Shown here: in pieces, positions 7,153-54,738 of the stretch
Numbering within the stretch: the stretch's first letter is position 1
How the letters are laid out: every line of letters starts with the position of its first letter
Source: Exiguobacterium sibiricum 7-3
GTDB lineage: Bacteria; Bacillota; Bacilli; Exiguobacteriales; Exiguobacteriaceae
DNA: 64,000 nucleotides
Direction of reading: 5' to 3'
Assembly (NCBI RefSeq): GCF_000620865.1
Contig: NZ_KK211190.1
Coordinates: 62,001 to 126,000, forward strand
Notes under the pieces: model-generated
Told to the model about the DNA's origin: nothing
The model's database searches: none
Seen by the model: the letters and a program-made list of their open reading frames with translations, nothing else
Position numbers and translations under genes: made by a program

Positions 7153-7168
7153 TATGAAAAATTACATT

Positions 7169-7266
7169 CTTATCCAGAGAGGTGGAGGGACTGGCCCTTT
7201 GAAGCCTCAGCAACAGGTCGAAAGATACTGTGCTAATTCCTGCGGGTGTCGTACCCGATCGATAAG
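7169..7266 (+). ncRNA. SAM-I riboswitch (S-box leader) of mmuP-mmuM
   Basis: Contains the S-box signatures in order: P1 strand CTTATC (7169-7174), CAGAGAGGTGGAGGGACTGG, AGCCTCAGCAAC, GTGCTAATTCC, and closing P1 strand GATAAG (7261-7266). SAM binding stabilises the aptamer and allows the downstream terminator to form, switching off the genes when methionine/SAM is plentiful. The aptamer is followed within 20 nt by an intrinsic terminator, as expected for transcriptional control. Confidence 0.96.
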
Positions 7267-7286
7267 CTTCTTTTGATTGTCGACCG

Positions 7287-32007: not shown

Positions 32008-32020
32008 AATTCCAATAATT

Positions 32021-32122
32021 CTTATCAAGAGAAGTCGAGGGAATGGCCCGAAGACACTTCAGCAACCCCGCGCGCAGCGGAAGGTGCTACTTCCTAAAGG
32101 GGGCAATCCCTTTACAGATAAG
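32021..32122 (+). ncRNA. SAM-I riboswitch (S-box leader) of the monooxygenase/ATP-grasp operon
   Basis: P1 strands CTTATC (32021) and GATAAG (32117-32122), with the conserved AAGAGAAGTCGAGGGAATGG, CTTCAGCAACC, and GGTGCTACTTCC blocks between them. The aptamer is followed by a terminator. The operon should therefore be expressed when SAM/methionine is low, i.e. under sulfur limitation. Confidence 0.95.
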
Positions 32123-32141
32123 AGCAGACATGATTAATCCG

Positions 32142-40384: not shown

Positions 40385-40785
40385 GAACTACCTCCACCTA
40401 CGCTTCGCTAAGAGGTGGAGGATTCCTGAGTTATTCAACCTAGCGGTCAAAAATTTATCAGGCTAACCCCGTCGTCCCGACGGTTGAACGTTGATATGGT
40501 CCGTTTCTTTTATGCGGATGCCTACTCTGCTTGGTTTTCGCTACTTCGGTCATCCGCAAGGTGAACGTTGAAGATTTTACGTGACAGACGAACTTCCTGT
40601 CACAACCCTATATCTTCAGTTTTCAAAGAACATGACTCTTTTTTTATTCCTGATTTTAATTGTTTTCAAACCAAGAGTGTCGGACAATTGACGTGTCGCA
40701 AGACACGCCTTGCCCGAAGACGATTCATCTCCTACTTGCACTAGGGCTTCGCCCTGAACGTTTAGAAGTGGGAGTATTCTCGTCT
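40385..40785 (+). mobile_element. hairpin-rich non-coding insertion, probable non-autonomous IS200/IS605-type element
   Basis: About 400 bp with no coding frame of its own but many perfect hairpins: CCTCCACCT/AGGTGGAGG (40391-40421), CCGTCG/CGACGG (40469-40483), TGCGGATG/CATCCGCA (40513-40558), GTGACAG/CTGTCAC (40581-40603), CGTGTC-GCAA-GACACG (near 40692-40707) and AGGGC/GCCCT (40743-40755) enclosed by CTCCTACTT/AAGTGGGAG. The two ends share GTGGAGGATTC and GTGGGAGTATTC. Terminal hairpins without inverted repeats recall IS200/IS605 ends or HEARO/omega-like RNA; tnpA and tnpB are absent. Confidence 0.55.
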
Positions 40786-41124
40786 AATTTTGATGAAAAA
40801 ATGATCATTCGAAAAAAGATGAACGCTCAATTCGCCCCGACGATCTATATGACGATTCCGCTCGCGTCAACGGGAATCCTGACACCGGGAACGTATCAAC
40901 TGGATGTCAAACTGACCGGCGACACACAGGAATGGTCGTTTGAGGATGATTTTACAATCAGTGAAAATCAGGTAAAGGAAATGAAGAAAACCGTTCCAGA
41001 CGTTGAAGAACATCCGAACTCCTTTTTGGGAGAAAACTCCAAAGCATTGATGATTGGTTCTTTTCTGATTATCATTCTTTTGCTTGGCTATATTTATCGT
41101 TTAAAACGAAGCGTATCTTCATGA
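40786..41124 (+). pseudogene. C-terminal remnant of a DUF916/DUF3324 WxL-associated surface protein
   Basis: About 110 residues remain. LTPGTYQLDVKLTGDTQEWSFEDDFTI is like the DUF3324 domain, and the end is a membrane helix (residues ALMIGSFLIIILLLGYIY) with a basic tail RLKR, as in cell-surface partners of WxL proteins. The N-terminal DUF916 half is missing and replaced by the hairpin-rich element, although an orphaned promoter and start codon lie upstream at 40304-40377. The open frame from 40660 runs through the element and is not a natural start. Likely non-functional. Confidence 0.7.
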
Positions 41125-43612: not shown

Positions 43613-44800
43613 TTATTTACGACGGATTAATACGGATTTTGAAGCCGTTTCTTTTAAAGAAGCATGTTCCGGGAAGTCTTCTAAAGGAGTACTTTCCCAA
43701 ACGATTTCGTACGTTTGACGTAATTTTTTAAATGCTTGATCGACCATCTTCATAAAGCGGACCTGGTCAAACAAAGGACAGTCTGTCGTAATCAGCAATA
43801 AACCGCCACGATGCGTCATGTGGATGGTTTGTTGAATCAAAGCGGGTAAGTCGACTTCCGCCCGGAAATGGCGTGCCTGTGTTTTGACAAGAGTCGGCGG
43901 ATGAACGATGACGAAATCAAAGCGTGTTTTTTTGTCGGCTTGATCGATATAGTCAAACGCGTCCTGGACAAGAATCGTCTGTGTCGTTGAATCGAATTGA
44001 TGCAGTTCCAACTGCTCAATTGTTTTATTACGGCTTCGTGTCGAGAAATCGACGCTTGTCGTCTCGACTGCACCACCAAGTAAGGCAGCTGCCGTTAACG
44101 TGCCTGTGTCAGAAAACAGATTCAAGACACGTCGATCTGAAGCATGTTGTTTGACGACGGAACGGAGTTCACGCTGATGGATATCAAGCCCGGTGCGCAT
44201 ACCGGCATCGAGATGGTACAACAGGGGGATGCCGTTTTCTTGCAAGACTTCTGGGAAATCACCGCGTTCACCAGCTAAGAAATCGTCACCTTTGACCGGT
44301 TGTCCATCGATCTGGAAAGTCCGTTTTTCATAAATGCTCTTAAAGTGGATAAGTGATTCGAGCGCTGATACGATATCGGCTTTAAAAGAGTAGATGCCTT
44401 CGTTTTCAAACGTAATCAGATAATGGTGATCAAAACAATCGATGGTCAATCCGCCGATGCCGTCTCCTGAACCGTTAAAGACCCGGAACGTATCAATCAA
44501 ATCATTCTCAAAAAAATCATTTCGACGATCGAGGGCAACCTCGATTTTTTCTTTGAAGAAAGTTTCGTCGATGTCTTGCAGTTCATCAGTCGACAGTAAC
44601 CAACCAATCCCTTTTTCCTGCTTGCCAAAATAACCCGTTGCAAGGTATTCTTTATCTTCTGTCATCAGCCGGAGTAAGGCACCAGCTTCTTTGAGATGAC
44701 TGGTTTTTTGAAACAATTCTTTGTACAAAAACGGTTGTCCGTCTTTGATTTGTTCGATGGCTGTCGTTTTGACGACAACCGGATAAATTTCACGTGGCAC
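43613..44800 (-). CDS. class I SAM-dependent rRNA methyltransferase, RlmI-like
   Basis: 395 residues: N-terminal PUA-type RNA-binding domain (about 1-70), an EEHEH-like linker domain, and a C-terminal Rossmann methyltransferase with VLNLFSDTGTLTAAALLGGA (motif I) and VIVHPPTLVKT, where HPP stands for the usual DPP of motif IV. By family it modifies a cytosine of 23S rRNA (m5C1962 in E. coli). GTG start with GAGGA upstream. Its promoter region contains four perfect DnaA boxes (44821-44920). Confidence 0.85.
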   Translation of the reverse strand: MPREIYPVVVKTTAIEQIKDGQPFLYKELFQKTSHLKEAGALLRLMTEDKEYLATGYFGKQEKGIGWLLSTDELQDIDETFFKEKIEVALDRRNDFFENDLIDTFRVFNGSGDGIGGLTIDCFDHHYLITFENEGIYSFKADIVSALESLIHFKSIYEKRTFQIDGQPVKGDDFLAGERGDFPEVLQENGIPLLYHLDAGMRTGLDIHQRELRSVVKQHASDRRVLNLFSDTGTLTAAALLGGAVETTSVDFSTRSRNKTIEQLELHQFDSTTQTILVQDAFDYIDQADKKTRFDFVIVHPPTLVKTQARHFRAEVDLPALIQQTIHMTHRGGLLLITTDCPLFDQVRFMKMVDQAFKKLRQTYEIVWESTPLEDFPEHASLKETASKSVLIRRK

Positions 44801-44820: not shown

Positions 44821-44920
44821 TGTGGATAAGTAGTAAAAGTATAGCATATGGAAAGTTATCCACATGTGGATAATTTTAATTAAATCAGATTAAGCAAAAT
44901 AGTTGTTCGTGTGTGGATAA
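44821..44920. promoter_or_regulatory. cluster of four consensus DnaA boxes
   Basis: TGTGGATAA at 44821-44829, TTATCCACA at 44856-44864, TGTGGATAA at 44865-44873, and TGTGGATAA at 44912-44920. All four are perfect 9-mers; the middle two abut head to head, forming an 18-bp palindrome. No oriC genes (dnaA, dnaN) are nearby, so this looks like a non-origin DnaA-box cluster or a DnaA-controlled promoter. Confidence 0.85.
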
Positions 44921-45155: not shown

Positions 45156-45563
45156 ATGTCCAAGAAGACAGTTCAGGTTGTAGGTGCAGTTATAACTAAC
45201 TCAAGTCATGAAGTGCTGTGTGCTCTTCGAAGTCCTGTCATGTCATTACCGAACTTATGGGAGTTTCCGGGCGGGAAAATCGAACCGGGTGAACGTCCGG
45301 AAGAGTCTCTCCTCCGCGAAATTCAGGAAGAATTAAATTGTACGATTCAAGTGGACGATCATATCGAAACAACACGATATGAATACGACAAAGTATTTGT
45401 TGAGTTATCGACTTTTCAATCAACGATTGTATCAGGTGAACCTCAAGCATTGGAACATGCGGAATTACGATGGGTACCCGTCAAACAGTTGGATTCTTTA
45501 GATTGGGCTCCGGCAGATATTCCGTCTGTAAAAAAAATCATGAAAGCTTTTTCCACGAAATAA
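45156..45563 (+). CDS. MutT-like Nudix hydrolase, (deoxy)nucleoside triphosphate pyrophosphohydrolase
   Basis: 135 residues from the ATG at 45156 (GAGAGGA 8 nt upstream). MutT pattern: GAVITNSSHEVLCALRS, LWEFPGGKIEPGE, and Nudix residues R54, E55, E58, E59 in REIQEE; the final glycine of the box is Asn. Members hydrolyse oxidised or non-canonical dNTPs. The 3' end overlaps the convergent helicase gene by 26 bp. Its placement beside a PLD-helicase-DUF3427 gene suggests a functional pair. Confidence 0.85.
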   Translation: MSKKTVQVVGAVITNSSHEVLCALRSPVMSLPNLWEFPGGKIEPGERPEESLLREIQEELNCTIQVDDHIETTRYEYDKVFVELSTFQSTIVSGEPQALEHAELRWVPVKQLDSLDWAPADIPSVKKIMKAFSTK

Positions 45564-48500
45564 ATTCTTCACTTGTTAAGGGCTCTTTTAAAATCCACTC
45601 CACATTAATCGGTTTTGATCCATGACTGCTTTTGTGAATCAATTCACCGAAGTACGTAAAGGGCAGAGAGCGACCTTGTTCCTTTTCAGCTTTTCGAATA
45701 AAGAGATGAATTTTGATTCCCTGTGCTTCATGATGGCGGTAAAGTTCACCGATTTTGCTTAAGTCAGTAGTCCGATTTTGTGATTGCCAGTGGAAATGGT
45801 GTTTATCGATAAAGTAGTCTTGATAATTCAATTGATCTTCAATCGATTCATTTTTGTGTAAATTAACGAATAATACATAATCATTTCCGGCTTGAGCAAC
45901 CCCTTCGCGCCACGATCCTTCCTGGCTTGAAGATTGTAACAATCGTTGGATGACAGAGCGACTGTATGTCATTCTTGAAATCAATGATTGAGGACTAGTC
46001 AACCAATTTTCTCCACCTGAAAGTTGTTCAAATGAGTGGAGGCCTGCCTGGATTAGCTCATGCAAATAGTCGACTAATGCTGGCGACGAAGCTAAAATCC
46101 GTGTCATTTCTTCCGAGAAGGTATATTCACCAGCAGCAGATTCAACAAGCAACACAATCCGATCATGTTTTAAAGAAGTAGACCAGCGATTAAATAGATG
46201 CTGAATCAAAGACAAACGATGAGTTAAGGCTTCCGGTGAAACGGCAAAGCGGGTTGCGGTTGATTGAATGACATCATCAGCGGAAATCGTCCGTTGATTG
46301 AACAGCGATTGCACCATCAATAAGCTGAATGGTTCGCGGATCGGGAACCAACTTTCGATATGTTGGAGCACGCGTCGTGTATCCGGATTAAGCAACAAAG
46401 CCACTTCTTCATCGGTTGCTACTTTTTCCAGTTGTTTTAGCTTTAGAACACTTTTCCACTGTTGAATAATCGTTTCGATTGCGGGGGCGTCCGGATGTGT
46501 CACCAAATCATTTAATGATGGTGTGTCGCCGATCATAGTCATCAGACGCTGGTAGCTTTCACGTAATTGTTTACTGGCCGAAAACTCGATTTTTTTCATT
46601 TGTTCAATGATAAATGTCTCTGTCACACGATCCAAAATTGCCAAGGAACCTTCAGGCAAAATTGGAAAATGATTTTGAACCGCATTGGCGATATGATAGC
46701 GATCGATCGAATGAAAAGATTGCTGACCAGATAAGACAAGCGGTGCCACAAAAGCGCGTTGACTGTTGCCGATAAAGTCTAAAATCGTGACGTACTCTTT
46801 TGACTCATGTTTCCGTAAACCGCGACCAAGTTGTTGAATAAAAATCGTTGGTGACTCCGTAGGACGTAAAAACAGCATGACGTTAATTTTAGGAATGTCG
46901 ACACCTTCATTAAAGAGATCGACTGTAAAGATAAACGATAGCGGATCCTGATCATCTTCCAGCCGTTGAATGGCGTGTTCCCGTTCTGCTTCCGTTTGTT
47001 TACTCGTGATGGCCAGTGACTCGATCTGGTGCTTGTTAAACTCAGCAGCCATGTATTCGGCATGATCAATATTGACACAAAAACCGAGTCCGACCCGAGC
47101 CGTACCGCTGTGACCAAATTTAGTCATCATCTCGAGGATATAGTCCGTCCGGGAAGAACGTTCGAGTGCTTCCACTAAATCTTTTTCAATGTACAATCCA
47201 TTTTTTTGCGGAATGACTTCGTAATCAATGGCTTCATCATCTTGAATACCAAAGTAATGGAACGGTGTTAACAAGTCTTGGGCCAGAGCATCATATAATC
47301 GAATTTCGTATGCAATATTGTGGTCCACTAACTTAAAGATATTTAATCCGTCCATTCGTTCCGGTGTTGCCGTAATTCCGAGTAAAAATTGCGGTGTAAA
47401 GTAGTTGAGGATTTTTTGGTAAGACTCGGAAGCAGCATGGTGAAACTCATCGATGATGATGTAATCAAAAGTGTTTGGATCGAATTGTTCCAAATGAACT
47501 TCTTTTGAGAACGTTTGAATGGTCGCAAAAGTAAATTGCTTATCAAGATCTTTTTGATTTGCCTGGTACCGTCCGAATGTGGCATGGATATCTGTGAAAA
47601 TTTTCTTAAATGTTTCTTCCGCTTGAGATAAAAGTTTTCCGCGGTGAGCGACAAACAGAACACGTTTAGCTGCAAATTGTTTGACGTCGAAAGCCGCCAA
47701 ATAGGTTTTTCCTGTTCCCGTTGCTGCAATGACCATTGCTTTTGTTTGTTGTTTTAACCGTAAACGGTGTAATTGTTCCAAAGCCGGAAGCTGCATTTCA
47801 TTTGGTTGAATCACTTCGTATTCAACAGAGGGTTCTGCGACTCGATCATTCACAACAAACTGTTTGATCTTCGGAGAGTCTAAATGATGTTGTTCATATT
47901 GATCTAAAATAGCTGATGTGCAGGAAATCGCTTCTTCACTGTTCCAGAGATTATTAAATAATGTTTGTGCTTGAGAAACTAAAGAGGTGAGAGGAGAATG
48001 GGGAATTCGAACATTCCATTCTAATCCATTTGTTAAAGCAGACTTTGATAAATTAGATGAACCGATAATCGTACTGTGTAAATCAGTTTCCCGTGTAAAT
48101 AAATACGCTTTTGGATGGAAGGCTTGATTTTTTTTGATCGGTTCGTAAATTTTAATCTCGATATTTTTAAATTGCATCAGAGTCCGTAATGCTTTGGCTT
48201 CTGTAATGTTCATATAAAATGAAGTTAAAATACGAATCGGTTTATTGATTCGTTCCGCTTCTTGAAATGAAGGGACGAGTGCTTGGATTCCGGAATGGCG
48301 TGTAAAGCTGACCATCCAGTCGGCGGATTGGGCTGTTGATAATTCATTGATCAAGTGATGCAACAGTTTTTCCTGATTTTCTTGACCCGGTGCAATTAAG
48401 TCCCATGCTCTTAATGATTTTTCATATTGTACGGGTGTCGTAGTAGAGGATGTTAGTTCACGATGCAAGGGTGCAACCAAAAGCGGCTCATCTAATGCAG

Positions 48501-48696
48501 AGAGCCAACGGTTTGTGGTTTCAATCATTTCCCCGGTCAGTTGATTTTGTTGAAGTTCAACAATCGATTTATAGAAGAGCTCGTTTAAGTGTGTCAGTAA
48601 TTCGGCGGTATAATCTGCTGGTTGAATCGGAGAGCTTTTTTCAAAAGGATGAGATTCAGTATTTTGACTGCGTAATTTTTCTTGAAACGATGACAT
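45538..48696 (-). CDS. PLD-domain / superfamily 2 helicase / DUF3427 protein
   Basis: 1052-residue multidomain protein. N-terminal phospholipase-D-like nuclease domain with HPKAYLF (about residues 194-200) and GSSNLSKSA (212-220); a single HKD half-site. Then an SF2 helicase: Walker A AATGTGKT (about 324-331), DEFH (416-419), TATPERMD, and motif VI QQLGRGLRK (about 621-629). The C-terminal 400 residues match DUF3427-type proteins. Start at 48696 chosen for GGAGGT 7 nt upstream. The gene looks AT-richer than its neighbours. Role in DNA repair or phage defence is inferred. Confidence 0.85.
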   Translation of the reverse strand: MSSFQEKLRSQNTESHPFEKSSPIQPADYTAELLTHLNELFYKSIVELQQNQLTGEMIETTNRWLSALDEPLLVAPLHRELTSSTTTPVQYEKSLRAWDLIAPGQENQEKLLHHLINELSTAQSADWMVSFTRHSGIQALVPSFQEAERINKPIRILTSFYMNITEAKALRTLMQFKNIEIKIYEPIKKNQAFHPKAYLFTRETDLHSTIIGSSNLSKSALTNGLEWNVRIPHSPLTSLVSQAQTLFNNLWNSEEAISCTSAILDQYEQHHLDSPKIKQFVVNDRVAEPSVEYEVIQPNEMQLPALEQLHRLRLKQQTKAMVIAATGTGKTYLAAFDVKQFAAKRVLFVAHRGKLLSQAEETFKKIFTDIHATFGRYQANQKDLDKQFTFATIQTFSKEVHLEQFDPNTFDYIIIDEFHHAASESYQKILNYFTPQFLLGITATPERMDGLNIFKLVDHNIAYEIRLYDALAQDLLTPFHYFGIQDDEAIDYEVIPQKNGLYIEKDLVEALERSSRTDYILEMMTKFGHSGTARVGLGFCVNIDHAEYMAAEFNKHQIESLAITSKQTEAEREHAIQRLEDDQDPLSFIFTVDLFNEGVDIPKINVMLFLRPTESPTIFIQQLGRGLRKHESKEYVTILDFIGNSQRAFVAPLVLSGQQSFHSIDRYHIANAVQNHFPILPEGSLAILDRVTETFIIEQMKKIEFSASKQLRESYQRLMTMIGDTPSLNDLVTHPDAPAIETIIQQWKSVLKLKQLEKVATDEEVALLLNPDTRRVLQHIESWFPIREPFSLLMVQSLFNQRTISADDVIQSTATRFAVSPEALTHRLSLIQHLFNRWSTSLKHDRIVLLVESAAGEYTFSEEMTRILASSPALVDYLHELIQAGLHSFEQLSGGENWLTSPQSLISRMTYSRSVIQRLLQSSSQEGSWREGVAQAGNDYVLFVNLHKNESIEDQLNYQDYFIDKHHFHWQSQNRTTDLSKIGELYRHHEAQGIKIHLFIRKAEKEQGRSLPFTYFGELIHKSSHGSKPINVEWILKEPLTSEEFISWKKLS

Positions 48697-48840: not shown

Positions 48841-49287
48841 TCAGCCTTCCAACTCCACAACCGCCTCTAACGAAACCTTCACATTACCAGCCAGTGCCCG
48901 CGTAATCATACACGATCCTTCTGCTTTTTCAGCCAGGCGGCGTGCTTTCGTCAGGTTCGCTTCTGTCGTCTCTACCGGTAGAATCAAGGTCGGTCGGTGA
49001 ATGATCGCGTCATAGGTGAAGACGCCGTTCGTGACATCGACGATTCCTTCCGATTCCATCGTGAGGGACACTTTCGGGATGTTGTTTCGTTCGAGCATCG
49101 CGGCCAGCGTGATGATGTAACATGTCGCGGCTGCACCGAGCAACATCTCGTCCGGATTGGTACCGACACCGGGGCCGTCCATTGCGTCCGGAATCGAAAT
49201 CTTTGTTTTCAATTCGCCGGTCTCGATTTGACCGACATCATTGCGGTTGCCGGGCCAGTCTGCTGTCAGGTGAAAATGATGTTTCAT
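48841..49287 (-). CDS. OsmC-family peroxiredoxin-like protein
   Basis: 148 residues of the OsmC/Ohr fold from the ATG at 49287 (AGGAGG upstream). The two catalytic cysteines are in LLGAAATCYIITLAAM and GSCMITRAL, matching the SACOL1771-type subgroup. Such proteins reduce organic hydroperoxides. No adjacent OhrR regulator is present. The longer frame to 49323 is unsupported. Confidence 0.88.
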   Translation of the reverse strand: MKHHFHLTADWPGNRNDVGQIETGELKTKISIPDAMDGPGVGTNPDEMLLGAAATCYIITLAAMLERNNIPKVSLTMESEGIVDVTNGVFTYDAIIHRPTLILPVETTEANLTKARRLAEKAEGSCMITRALAGNVKVSLEAVVELEG

Positions 49288-49354
49288 AGTAATCGCCTCC
49301 TGTTTCTTCATCATACGAGCCATTCTTCAATTTTTCGCCTAATCTGCTCAAAGC

Positions 49355-53848: not shown

Positions 53849-53916
53849 ATATGCAGGAAACGGGAAATCTTACGACGAACAGAATATGTATGATAATCGA
53901 GGGGGATTTTAGACAG

Positions 53917-54738
53917 ATGACTTATTCAATCGTTGGGTATTGTGAAAAAGAACAGGCTTGGGGTGTAGCGGTTCAGTCAAAATTTTTAGCAGTCGGCAGT
54001 GCCGTACCTTTTGCGAAAGCCGGTGTCGGAGCGATTGCGACCCAGTCGTTTGCAAACACGTCATACGGTCCGGAAGGGTTGCGGATGATTGAAGAAGGCA
54101 AGTCGGCCGACGAAGTCTTGAAACGGCTGACGGAAGCCGATGAAGGACGGGCGGATCGTCAAGTTGGAATCATCGATGCTTCAGGTAAAAGTGCGACGTT
54201 TACGGGAGAAGGCTGTAATGACTGGGCAGGCGGAATTGCCGGAAAACACTTCGCGGCACAAGGAAACATTCTTGTCGACGGCAATACGGTCAAGGAGATG
54301 GCCCGTGTGTTCGAGACGACGGAAGGTCCGCTGGCTGAACGGTTATTACGGGCACTTGCCGCCGGTCAAGCAGCGGGCGGAGATTCACGGGGCATGCAGT
54401 CGGCAGCGTTGTTAGTCGTCAAAGAAGGCGGCGGGTACGGTGGTTTTAATGATCGTTATATTGATTTACGGGTCGATGATCATGCGAGTCCGATTCAGGA
54501 ACTGGAGCGGATTTATCAGTTGCATACGCTGTATTTGCAACCAAGCAAGCCGGAAGAAATCAAGCCGATTGATGATGCACTCGAATCGGAATTGATGGAC
54601 AAGCTGCTTGAACTCGGATACCGCGGTTCGTTTGCGGAAGCTTTCCGGACGTACCTGCATACGGAAAACTTCGAGATGCGGGAACAGACGGATCGGTCGA
54701 TTGACACGCGGGTCCTCGCCTATCTTCGGGCACAATGA
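53917..54738 (+). CDS. DUF1028 family Ntn-hydrolase-like protein
   Basis: 273 residues, start chosen at 53917 because MTYSIVGYCE matches the family and GAGGGGG lies upstream; the longer frame adds 22 residues. The first 200 residues form the DUF1028 Ntn-hydrolase-like fold, with AVQSKFLAVGSAVPFAKAGVGAIATQSFAN near the N-terminus and the highly conserved GNILVDG, and AGGDSRGMQSAALLVV. The remainder (about 70 residues) is helical and may be a peptidoglycan-binding-like segment. Enzymatic role is not proven in this family. Confidence 0.85.
   Translation: MTYSIVGYCEKEQAWGVAVQSKFLAVGSAVPFAKAGVGAIATQSFANTSYGPEGLRMIEEGKSADEVLKRLTEADEGRADRQVGIIDASGKSATFTGEGCNDWAGGIAGKHFAAQGNILVDGNTVKEMARVFETTEGPLAERLLRALAAGQAAGGDSRGMQSAALLVVKEGGGYGGFNDRYIDLRVDDHASPIQELERIYQLHTLYLQPSKPEEIKPIDDALESELMDKLLELGYRGSFAEAFRTYLHTENFEMREQTDRSIDTRVLAYLRAQ

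Follow-up and report, generated by a model that had tools for sequence, protein, structure and literature searches.

The stretch of Exiguobacterium sibiricum 7-3 DNA analyzed here (contig NZ_KK211190.1, positions 62,001 to 126,000; 64,000 nucleotides, hereafter the window, with position 1 at its first letter) encodes a 1052-residue protein that homology identifies as a modification-dependent (type IV) restriction enzyme of the SauUSI type, together with a small Nudix hydrolase whose gene overlaps its 3' end. The two genes recur side by side in most enzyme-bearing Bacilli genomes that we sampled. We propose, with a probability of about 0.45, that the pair constitutes a type IV restriction module in which the Nudix protein would guard the nucleotide pool, removing C5-modified dCTP and thereby sparing host DNA. 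The proposal was built from sequence comparisons, and the features on which it rests are the following.

48696-45538, minus strand: SauUSI-type type IV restriction enzyme gene, 1052 amino acids, with PLD nuclease, SF2 helicase, coupler and SRA-like DUF3427 recognition domain
45156-45563, plus strand: MutT/NudG-type Nudix hydrolase gene, PADLOC model PDC-S07, 135 amino acids
45538-45563: convergent overlap of the 3' ends of both genes, 26 bp
47944-48354, minus strand: phospholipase D (PLD) nuclease domain (PLDc_2, residues 115-251; HxK at 194/196)
45568-46344, minus strand: DUF3427 match (residues 785-1043; pocket residues F943, D960 and W970)

A preliminary description of this DNA had read the large protein as a fusion of a PLD nuclease, a helicase and a DUF3427-type C-terminus, with a 26-bp overlap between its gene and the Nudix gene. 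Domain matches confirmed this reading, and the overlap was recovered at the place given above. PLDc_2 (residues 115-251), ResIII (296-447), Helicase_C (537-629) and DUF3427 (785-1043) follow one another, so that the PLD nuclease, the superfamily 2 (SF2) helicase and DUF3427 lie in a single chain. The same description had ranked the locus as the window's strongest candidate for an undescribed system, and this part did not survive. Residues 107-1017 align to residues 36-912 of SauUSI (PDB 7clg) with an E-value of 3.9e-124, and the PADLOC model mREase_IV matches the protein with an E-value of 5.2e-127. Its suggestion of a role in defence or DNA-end processing held in part, in that defence is the likely role, of a system that is not undescribed.

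The substrate of SauUSI, as given in sections of PMC7913695, is the site S-m5C-N-G-S, the base being 5-methyl- or 5-hydroxymethylcytosine. The enzyme requires ATP or dATP, and efficient cleavage needs two modified sites, according to parts of two reports (PMC3874153, PMC7913695); a section heading describes the shredding of DNA with sites at both ends (PMC7913695). Its C-terminal domain is reported to adopt an SRA fold, with a modelled pocket formed by Y831, F841, I842 and W868, and with D858 positioned to touch the base (PMC7913695, structural section). The window enzyme shares with SauUSI the PLD-helicase-DUF3427/SRA architecture and the HxK nuclease site, and differs in carrying about 70 additional N-terminal residues. 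In the alignment, V933, F943, V944, D960 and W970 are equivalent to Y831, F841, I842, D858 and W868, respectively. F841, D858 and W868 are therefore retained, I842 corresponds to V944, and Tyr831 is replaced by Val. Among 118 homologues, the PLD-site residues H194, K196, N215 and E226 were invariant, as were the tested residues of helicase motifs I, II and VI. In the pocket, F was found in 116 of the homologues, D in 109 and W in 105, while the Tyr831 position held Y in 77 and V in 27. The window enzyme is thus likely to contain a reader of modified cytosine, with a base preference in this branch that the pocket residues do not fix. In the nearest SauUSI relative found (locus L113, 1616 bits to 7clg), this Nudix partner lies immediately upstream and is co-directional, whereas the partner in the window lies downstream and is convergent.

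The preliminary description had suggested a gene-neighbourhood check for recurrent Nudix partners, and such a partner was found at each taxonomic level. Within the genus, the full enzyme was present in 15 of 19 genomes, and in all 15 the Nudix gene overlapped its 3' end, with the 26-bp overlap preserved in every pair. Of the remaining genomes, one (G017) retained the Nudix gene with a C-terminal remnant of the enzyme, and three had neither gene. In the order sample, a full-length enzyme occurred in 21 of 38 genomes, always with an adjacent Nudix gene (21/21). The class sample comprised 398 Bacilli genomes, the order sample included, and was scored with thresholds of E<=1e-100 for the enzyme, E<=1e-30 for the Nudix protein and <=3 kb for adjacency. 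The enzyme was found in 97 of these genomes, and the Nudix gene lay within 3 kb in 91 of the 97. These 91 pairs span 24 family and 41 genus labels; 44 are convergent with the Nudix gene downstream, 43 co-directional with it upstream, and 4 co-directional with it downstream. The six enzyme genomes lacking a near Nudix gene comprised three with the gene elsewhere, one with the genes at contig ends (G158) and two with weak matches only (G229 and G292). At the genome level, the Nudix gene was present in 95 of 97 genomes with the enzyme and in 50 of 301 without it (Fisher p 2e-51, kinship ignored). At the thresholds used the relation is asymmetric, since only 95 of the 145 Nudix-bearing genomes carry the enzyme.

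In a wider scan of named genomes, we examined 80 loci, which are the best matches to the window protein, so that the sample leans to its own subfamily. They come from Bacillota, Bacteroidota, spirochaetes, fusobacteria, actinobacteria, proteobacteria and archaea. A Nudix gene lay within 1 kb at 68 of the 80, and at 64 of the 69 with both flanks of at least 800 bp. The 12 misses include seven with a short flank, one of which shows a truncated Nudix frame, and one locus (L271) with the Nudix gene 5.3 kb away. At two loci (L244 and L292), NudG-type Nudix genes flank one SauUSI-type enzyme on both sides. Plasmids and phages were rejected as the main carriers, with the enzyme matched in only 21 of 72,556 plasmid records and 8 of 50,697 phage records.

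The adjacency was kept through repeated changes of gene order. When 117 distinct enzymes that have a linked Nudix gene were placed on a FastTree phylogeny, parsimony required 15 changes of order, against a mean of 49 after shuffling; when only well-supported branches were considered, 4 to 8 changes were forced per arrangement. The distances between the restriction enzymes correlated with those between the Nudix proteins (r 0.52), and none of 999 permutations reached a value as high. The genes are tightly packed. The median gap was 9 bp, 110 of the 117 pairs lay within 100 bp of each other, and 34 overlapped when measured from the most upstream start codon, a convention that overcounts overlaps. 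In 43 of the 117 pairs the genes are on opposite strands.

Two controls were used to judge how specific the pairing is. McrBC is likewise a type IV system and, according to the text on it in PMC3874153, recognizes modified cytosine too. No Nudix gene was found beside any of 30 McrBC loci (flanks of about 1.5 kb, 29 of 200 genomes, threshold E 1e-3), and a Nudix partner generic to type IV enzymes was therefore rejected. Likewise, none was found beside 23 loci of a PLD-helicase paralogue without DUF3427 (L002, L017-L029 and L082-L090; flanks of about 1.5 kb, threshold E 1e-20). At the same distance of about 1.5 kb, 87 of the 97 enzyme genomes had the Nudix gene. The paralogue occurs in many genomes of the family; at locus L002 (G000:C7:2718430-2720358) it is a 777-residue frame that is 37% identical and has no DUF3427 match. 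A generic partner of PLD-helicases was thus also rejected, with one possible counter-example. At locus L198, fetched through its Nudix gene, an 806-residue nuclease-helicase gene lies about 0.4 kb away; its match to the profile is confined to the nuclease-helicase part and stops short of the DUF3427 part.

L198 is one of 58 loci with the Nudix gene away from the enzyme, five others of which contained a more distant SauUSI-type gene within the 12-kb stretch, in one case split over two frames. When the neighbours at the 57 such loci with a Nudix open reading frame were clustered, the nuclease-helicase cluster, formed by the SauUSI-type genes and the L198 gene, was the widest, spanning 5 genera; other clusters reached up to 4. 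Family tallies of 99 neighbours at 28 unlinked loci, one per genus, revealed no recurrent defence family among the best 25 of 43 and of 146. A different recurrent partner of the unlinked Nudix genes was rejected on these two grounds.

Positions 4-131 of the 135-residue window Nudix protein match the PADLOC model PDC-S07 (E 6e-52), which comes without a curated cut-off. It scored 88.4 bits with the NCBIfam MutT model (TIGR00586, cut-off 97.9) and 89.0 bits with the NudG-type equivalog (NF007834, cut-off 156). We aligned 120 linked and 46 unlinked Nudix proteins, 166 in all; 12 of the 58 unlinked loci were excluded because the enzyme or a remnant was nearby, the enzyme was elsewhere in the genome, or no Nudix open reading frame was recovered. 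The Nudix box residues G39, K41, E46, R54, E55, E58 and E59 were invariant in the 120 linked proteins, so catalysis has probably been kept. At window position 121, all 166 proteins have Asp, as does E. coli NudG, where MutT has Asn. We take the Asp of the C-terminal PAD motif of NudG to be the residue of cytosine recognition, and the Asn of MutT at the same position presumably contacts the purine. W117 was more divergent between the sets, being present in 117 of 120 linked and 24 of 46 unlinked proteins. E. coli NudG (Orf135, a 5-methyl-dCTP/CTP diphosphatase) resembles the window protein in its Nudix box and in a C-terminal PADIP motif with the Asp; the two differ in that they are only 31% identical and the window protein falls under the NudG cut-off. 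A table in PMC5158307 gives NudG a kcat/Km of 1,300 with 5-methyl-dCTP as substrate and of 47 with CTP, in the units of that table. From the Nudix family and this one diagnostic residue, the window protein most likely hydrolyzes C5-modified dCTP (5-methyl-dCTP and 5-hydroxymethyl-dCTP) to the monophosphate. No restriction gene is annotated within the 15 kb shown around nudG in E. coli K-12.

Taken together, the two proteins could operate as follows. The SRA-like DUF3427 domain of the enzyme would recognize C5-modified cytosine, after which the helicase would translocate and the PLD nuclease cut, all three steps being modelled on SauUSI. Modified dCTP might be supplied by an infecting phage or by the recycling of shredded foreign DNA. 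If left unguarded, it would enter the host chromosome and make it a target for the neighbouring enzyme; hydrolysis by the Nudix protein would keep the host DNA unmarked. Phage kinases for 5-methyl- and 5-hydroxymethyl-dCMP are on record, and Q5 polymerase accepts both triphosphates in vitro, according to parts of PMC10742078, which makes the danger to the host plausible.

A second type of pool enzyme joins the pair in some lineages. On a Lactiplantibacillus plasmid (L383), the Nudix gene and the enzyme gene are followed by one for a MazG-like protein (PF12643). Compared with the PDB, a step taken for L383 only, this protein matched RS21-C6 and human dCTP pyrophosphatase 1 (DCTPP1), among others, at E 4.5e-7. 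MazG-like genes were present at 9 of the 80 named loci, and at four of these nine (L312, L310, L294 and L280) they share the strand and either lie no more than 60 bp from the enzyme gene or overlap the Nudix gene. The relatives of human DCTPP1 (RS21-C6, itself MazG-like) thus stand in the operon at L383, L312, L310, L280 and L294. The MazG-like search gave no match at the McrBC loci or at the 58 unlinked Nudix loci, a single match about 600 bp from the paralogue at L002, and none at the window locus (L001). The MazG-like dCTP pyrophosphatase fold is unrelated to Nudix. The operons therefore place two unrelated enzyme types, each with members acting on 5-methyl-dCTP, beside a cutter of 5-methylcytosine DNA. 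In the sections of PMC4491611 on DCTPP1, the human enzyme hydrolyzes 5-methyl-dCTP, and when it was knocked down in a human cell line, cellular 5-methyl-dCTP rose about 2.8-fold and DNA methylation nearly threefold. More tentatively, we suggest that SauUSI-type restriction may in fact have two components, and in some cases three. The "antitoxin", a pyrophosphohydrolase of the Nudix or MazG type, would leave the enzyme and the DNA alone and work on the nucleotide pool, clearing modified dCTP before the host can make DNA open to attack by its own type IV enzyme; phage-made modified dCTP would be destroyed as well.

The chromosomal setting of the pair was compared among relatives. In the window, the gene for an rRNA methyltransferase (43613-44800) lies on one side of the pair and that for an OsmC-family protein (48841-49323) on the other. 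Among seven same-genus genomes, this slot held the pair in three (G000, G004 and G011). In G017 it held the Nudix gene and the C-terminal remnant of the enzyme, which indicates that the enzyme was lost and the Nudix gene retained. In the other three (G018, G010 and G006) the pair was absent, and a cytosine-C5 methyltransferase gene and restriction-type genes took its place. The preliminary description had weighed its defence reading against a pair kept at the same place in all relatives and away from islands; this pattern was not observed, the pair occupying three of seven slots and restriction-modification genes three others. Genome-wide, C5 methyltransferases were found in 31 of 97 enzyme-bearing and 160 of 301 enzyme-free Bacilli genomes (p 2.9e-4, kinship ignored). 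Within the window's family, the counts were 7 of 21 with the enzyme and 14 of 17 without it (p 0.0035), a depletion carried by a second genus (p 0.0095). This depletion fits an enzyme that is hostile to 5-methylcytosine.

Several observations weigh against the pool-guard proposal. On the side of the enzyme, the window protein has Val at the position of Tyr831, the residue proposed to contact the methyl group in SauUSI. The methyltransferase depletion is partial, and in the window's own genus it amounts to 6 of 15 against 3 of 4 (p 0.30), with kinship ignored throughout; a partial depletion is expected if the enzyme cuts only some sequence contexts. On the side of the Nudix protein, the scores lie below the NCBIfam cut-offs of MutT and NudG alike, and identities of 31% to NudG and 32% to MutT do not decide between them. 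Asp121 is equally fixed in the 46 unlinked proteins and hence does not tell the linked ones apart. Nor does the PDC-S07 model mark linkage, since it finds matches in 5 of 14 control genomes as well, E. coli included. The absence of a Nudix neighbour from the 30 McrBC loci implies that the guard logic is not general.

Some loci that depart from the pattern also count against the proposal. Four genomes have the enzyme with only weak Nudix matches (best 1.2e-13), namely G229, G292 and those carrying L257 and L256, the latter two being metagenome-derived and possibly incomplete. No dCTPase-like gene was recognized directly beside the enzyme in these four, and the idea of a dCTPase substitute at such exceptional loci was dropped, none being recognized among the tested neighbours; at L257, a MazG-like gene does lie about 2 kb away. 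Within flanks of 1.5 kb, the class-sample enzyme loci yielded no MazG-like gene. Five of the seven plasmid loci examined, out of 21, had no Nudix gene in the available flanks (L378-L381 and L384); it was present at L382 and L383. L378-L381 are DUF3427 enzymes on Pseudomonadota plasmids that matched the enzyme profile in two pieces only, and they form a distinct, more distant DUF3427 subfamily, perhaps with another base preference. These Nudix-less plasmid loci indicate that the pairing is characteristic of one subfamily, not of DUF3427 enzymes as a whole. At another Nudix-less locus (L239:8931-9422), a 164-residue HD-domain protein, possibly a nucleotide hydrolase, is convergent and downstream, in the usual place of the Nudix gene.

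Three other explanations were considered. The Nudix protein might be a second weapon, destroying the modified dCTP of the phage, which would be left with plain cytosine or starved, while the enzyme cuts any modified DNA still made. The predicted substrate is identical to that in the guard model, the Nudix gene occurs without the enzyme in 50 of 301 Bacilli genomes, and a passage of a 2025 review raises the monitoring of 5-hydroxymethyl-dCTP pools as a possible route of phage detection (PMC12707154). However, a second weapon alone leaves it unexplained that enzyme genomes without the Nudix gene are rare (2 of 97) while the reverse is common. Given this asymmetry, a guard is the better reading, and a second weapon alone is in our view rather unlikely.

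Still less probable, in our judgement, is that the Nudix protein regulates or assists the enzyme, through protein contact or through a nucleotide used by its ATPase, with hydrolysis of modified dCTP being incidental. The tight packing described above, with a median gap of 9 bp and 34 of 117 pairs overlapping, would suit such a role, as would the use of ATP or dATP by SauUSI noted in the text of PMC3874153. Nevertheless, a lone SauUSI polypeptide is described in the same source as sufficient in vitro and when cloned in E. coli (PMC3874153), the 43 opposite-strand pairs are unexpected if fixed co-translation mattered, and the invariant Nudix box of the linked proteins indicates that catalysis has probably been kept. 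The last alternative, an ordinary MutT-like sanitizer of 8-oxo-dGTP that travels by linkage or lowers mutation under stress, draws on the many relatives named MutT, on the 88.4 bits reached against a MutT cut-off of 97.9 and on a closest PDB chain named "Mutator mutT protein" (the L113 Nudix protein is very near the crystal structure of that name, 5x1x, E 6.9e-70), but it is very unlikely, because all 166 proteins carry Asp where E. coli MutT has Asn, linkage alone would hardly preserve adjacency across so many order changes, and a gene resembling dCTP pyrophosphatase joins the operon in some lineages.

The composition and the surroundings of the locus were also surveyed. The preliminary description had noted AT-richer DNA, and the GC content of 45156-48696 is indeed 0.408, compared with 0.469 for the whole window, and below that of all 3541-bp windows of the stretch in a scan with 500-bp steps. 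It had also placed a "structured repeat copy B" here, for which no counterpart emerged, as no direct or inverted repeat of at least 25 bp was found between positions 40 and 50 kb, with the rest of the window outside the search. The DnaA-box cluster that it placed beyond the Nudix gene is real. Four perfect TTATNCACA matches, all TTATCCACA, lie in 100 bp (44821-44920), and the window contains no other perfect match. Three or four DnaA boxes adjoin the rRNA methyltransferase gene in all seven same-genus genomes, with near-identical spacing in six, and they persist in the three genomes whose slot carries other genes. The cluster was therefore rejected as part of the unit and assigned to the chromosome backbone, separate from the pair; it possibly serves replication control. 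Elsewhere, the window contains two SAM (S-box) riboswitches (7167-7268 and 32019-32124), a DUF1028 protein with a putative peptidoglycan-binding domain (53851-54738) and a short protein with a WxL-interacting host-binding domain (40660-41124).

The adjacency itself is already in print. A 2020 figure legend identifies the small "DNA repair" proteins adjoining SauUSI homologues in Streptococcus as MutT homologues, which matches the neighbourhood described here, and the section around it gives no count, control or function (PMC7641849). In a part of a 2026 study of S. suis, PDC-S07 co-localized with type IV restriction-modification within 20 genes in 23 of 23 cases (PMC12813430), and an S. thermophilus study tabulates PDC-S07 among its systems, its section text containing no test of it (PMC11514479). 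Among the literature matches listed, with preprints and most subscription papers outside the search, there was no functional proposal for the SauUSI-Nudix pair, and the words "nudix" and "mutt" were absent from two SauUSI papers searched, the original 2011 report lying outside that search. What is new is the breadth of the pairing, the controls, the MazG-like link and a testable idea. PADLOC treats PDC-S07 as a single-gene phage defence candidate, whereas here it is read as the second gene of a type IV module.

For S. aureus, the title of PMC7913695 presents SauUSI as a major barrier to gene transfer, and the enzyme has so far been studied as a single protein. If our proposal is true, a near-constant pool-cleaning partner would give type IV restriction a means of self-protection and tie nucleotide metabolism to restriction. 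The defence candidate PDC-S07 would gain a testable function, and the heterologous use of SauUSI-type enzymes may depend on the partner.

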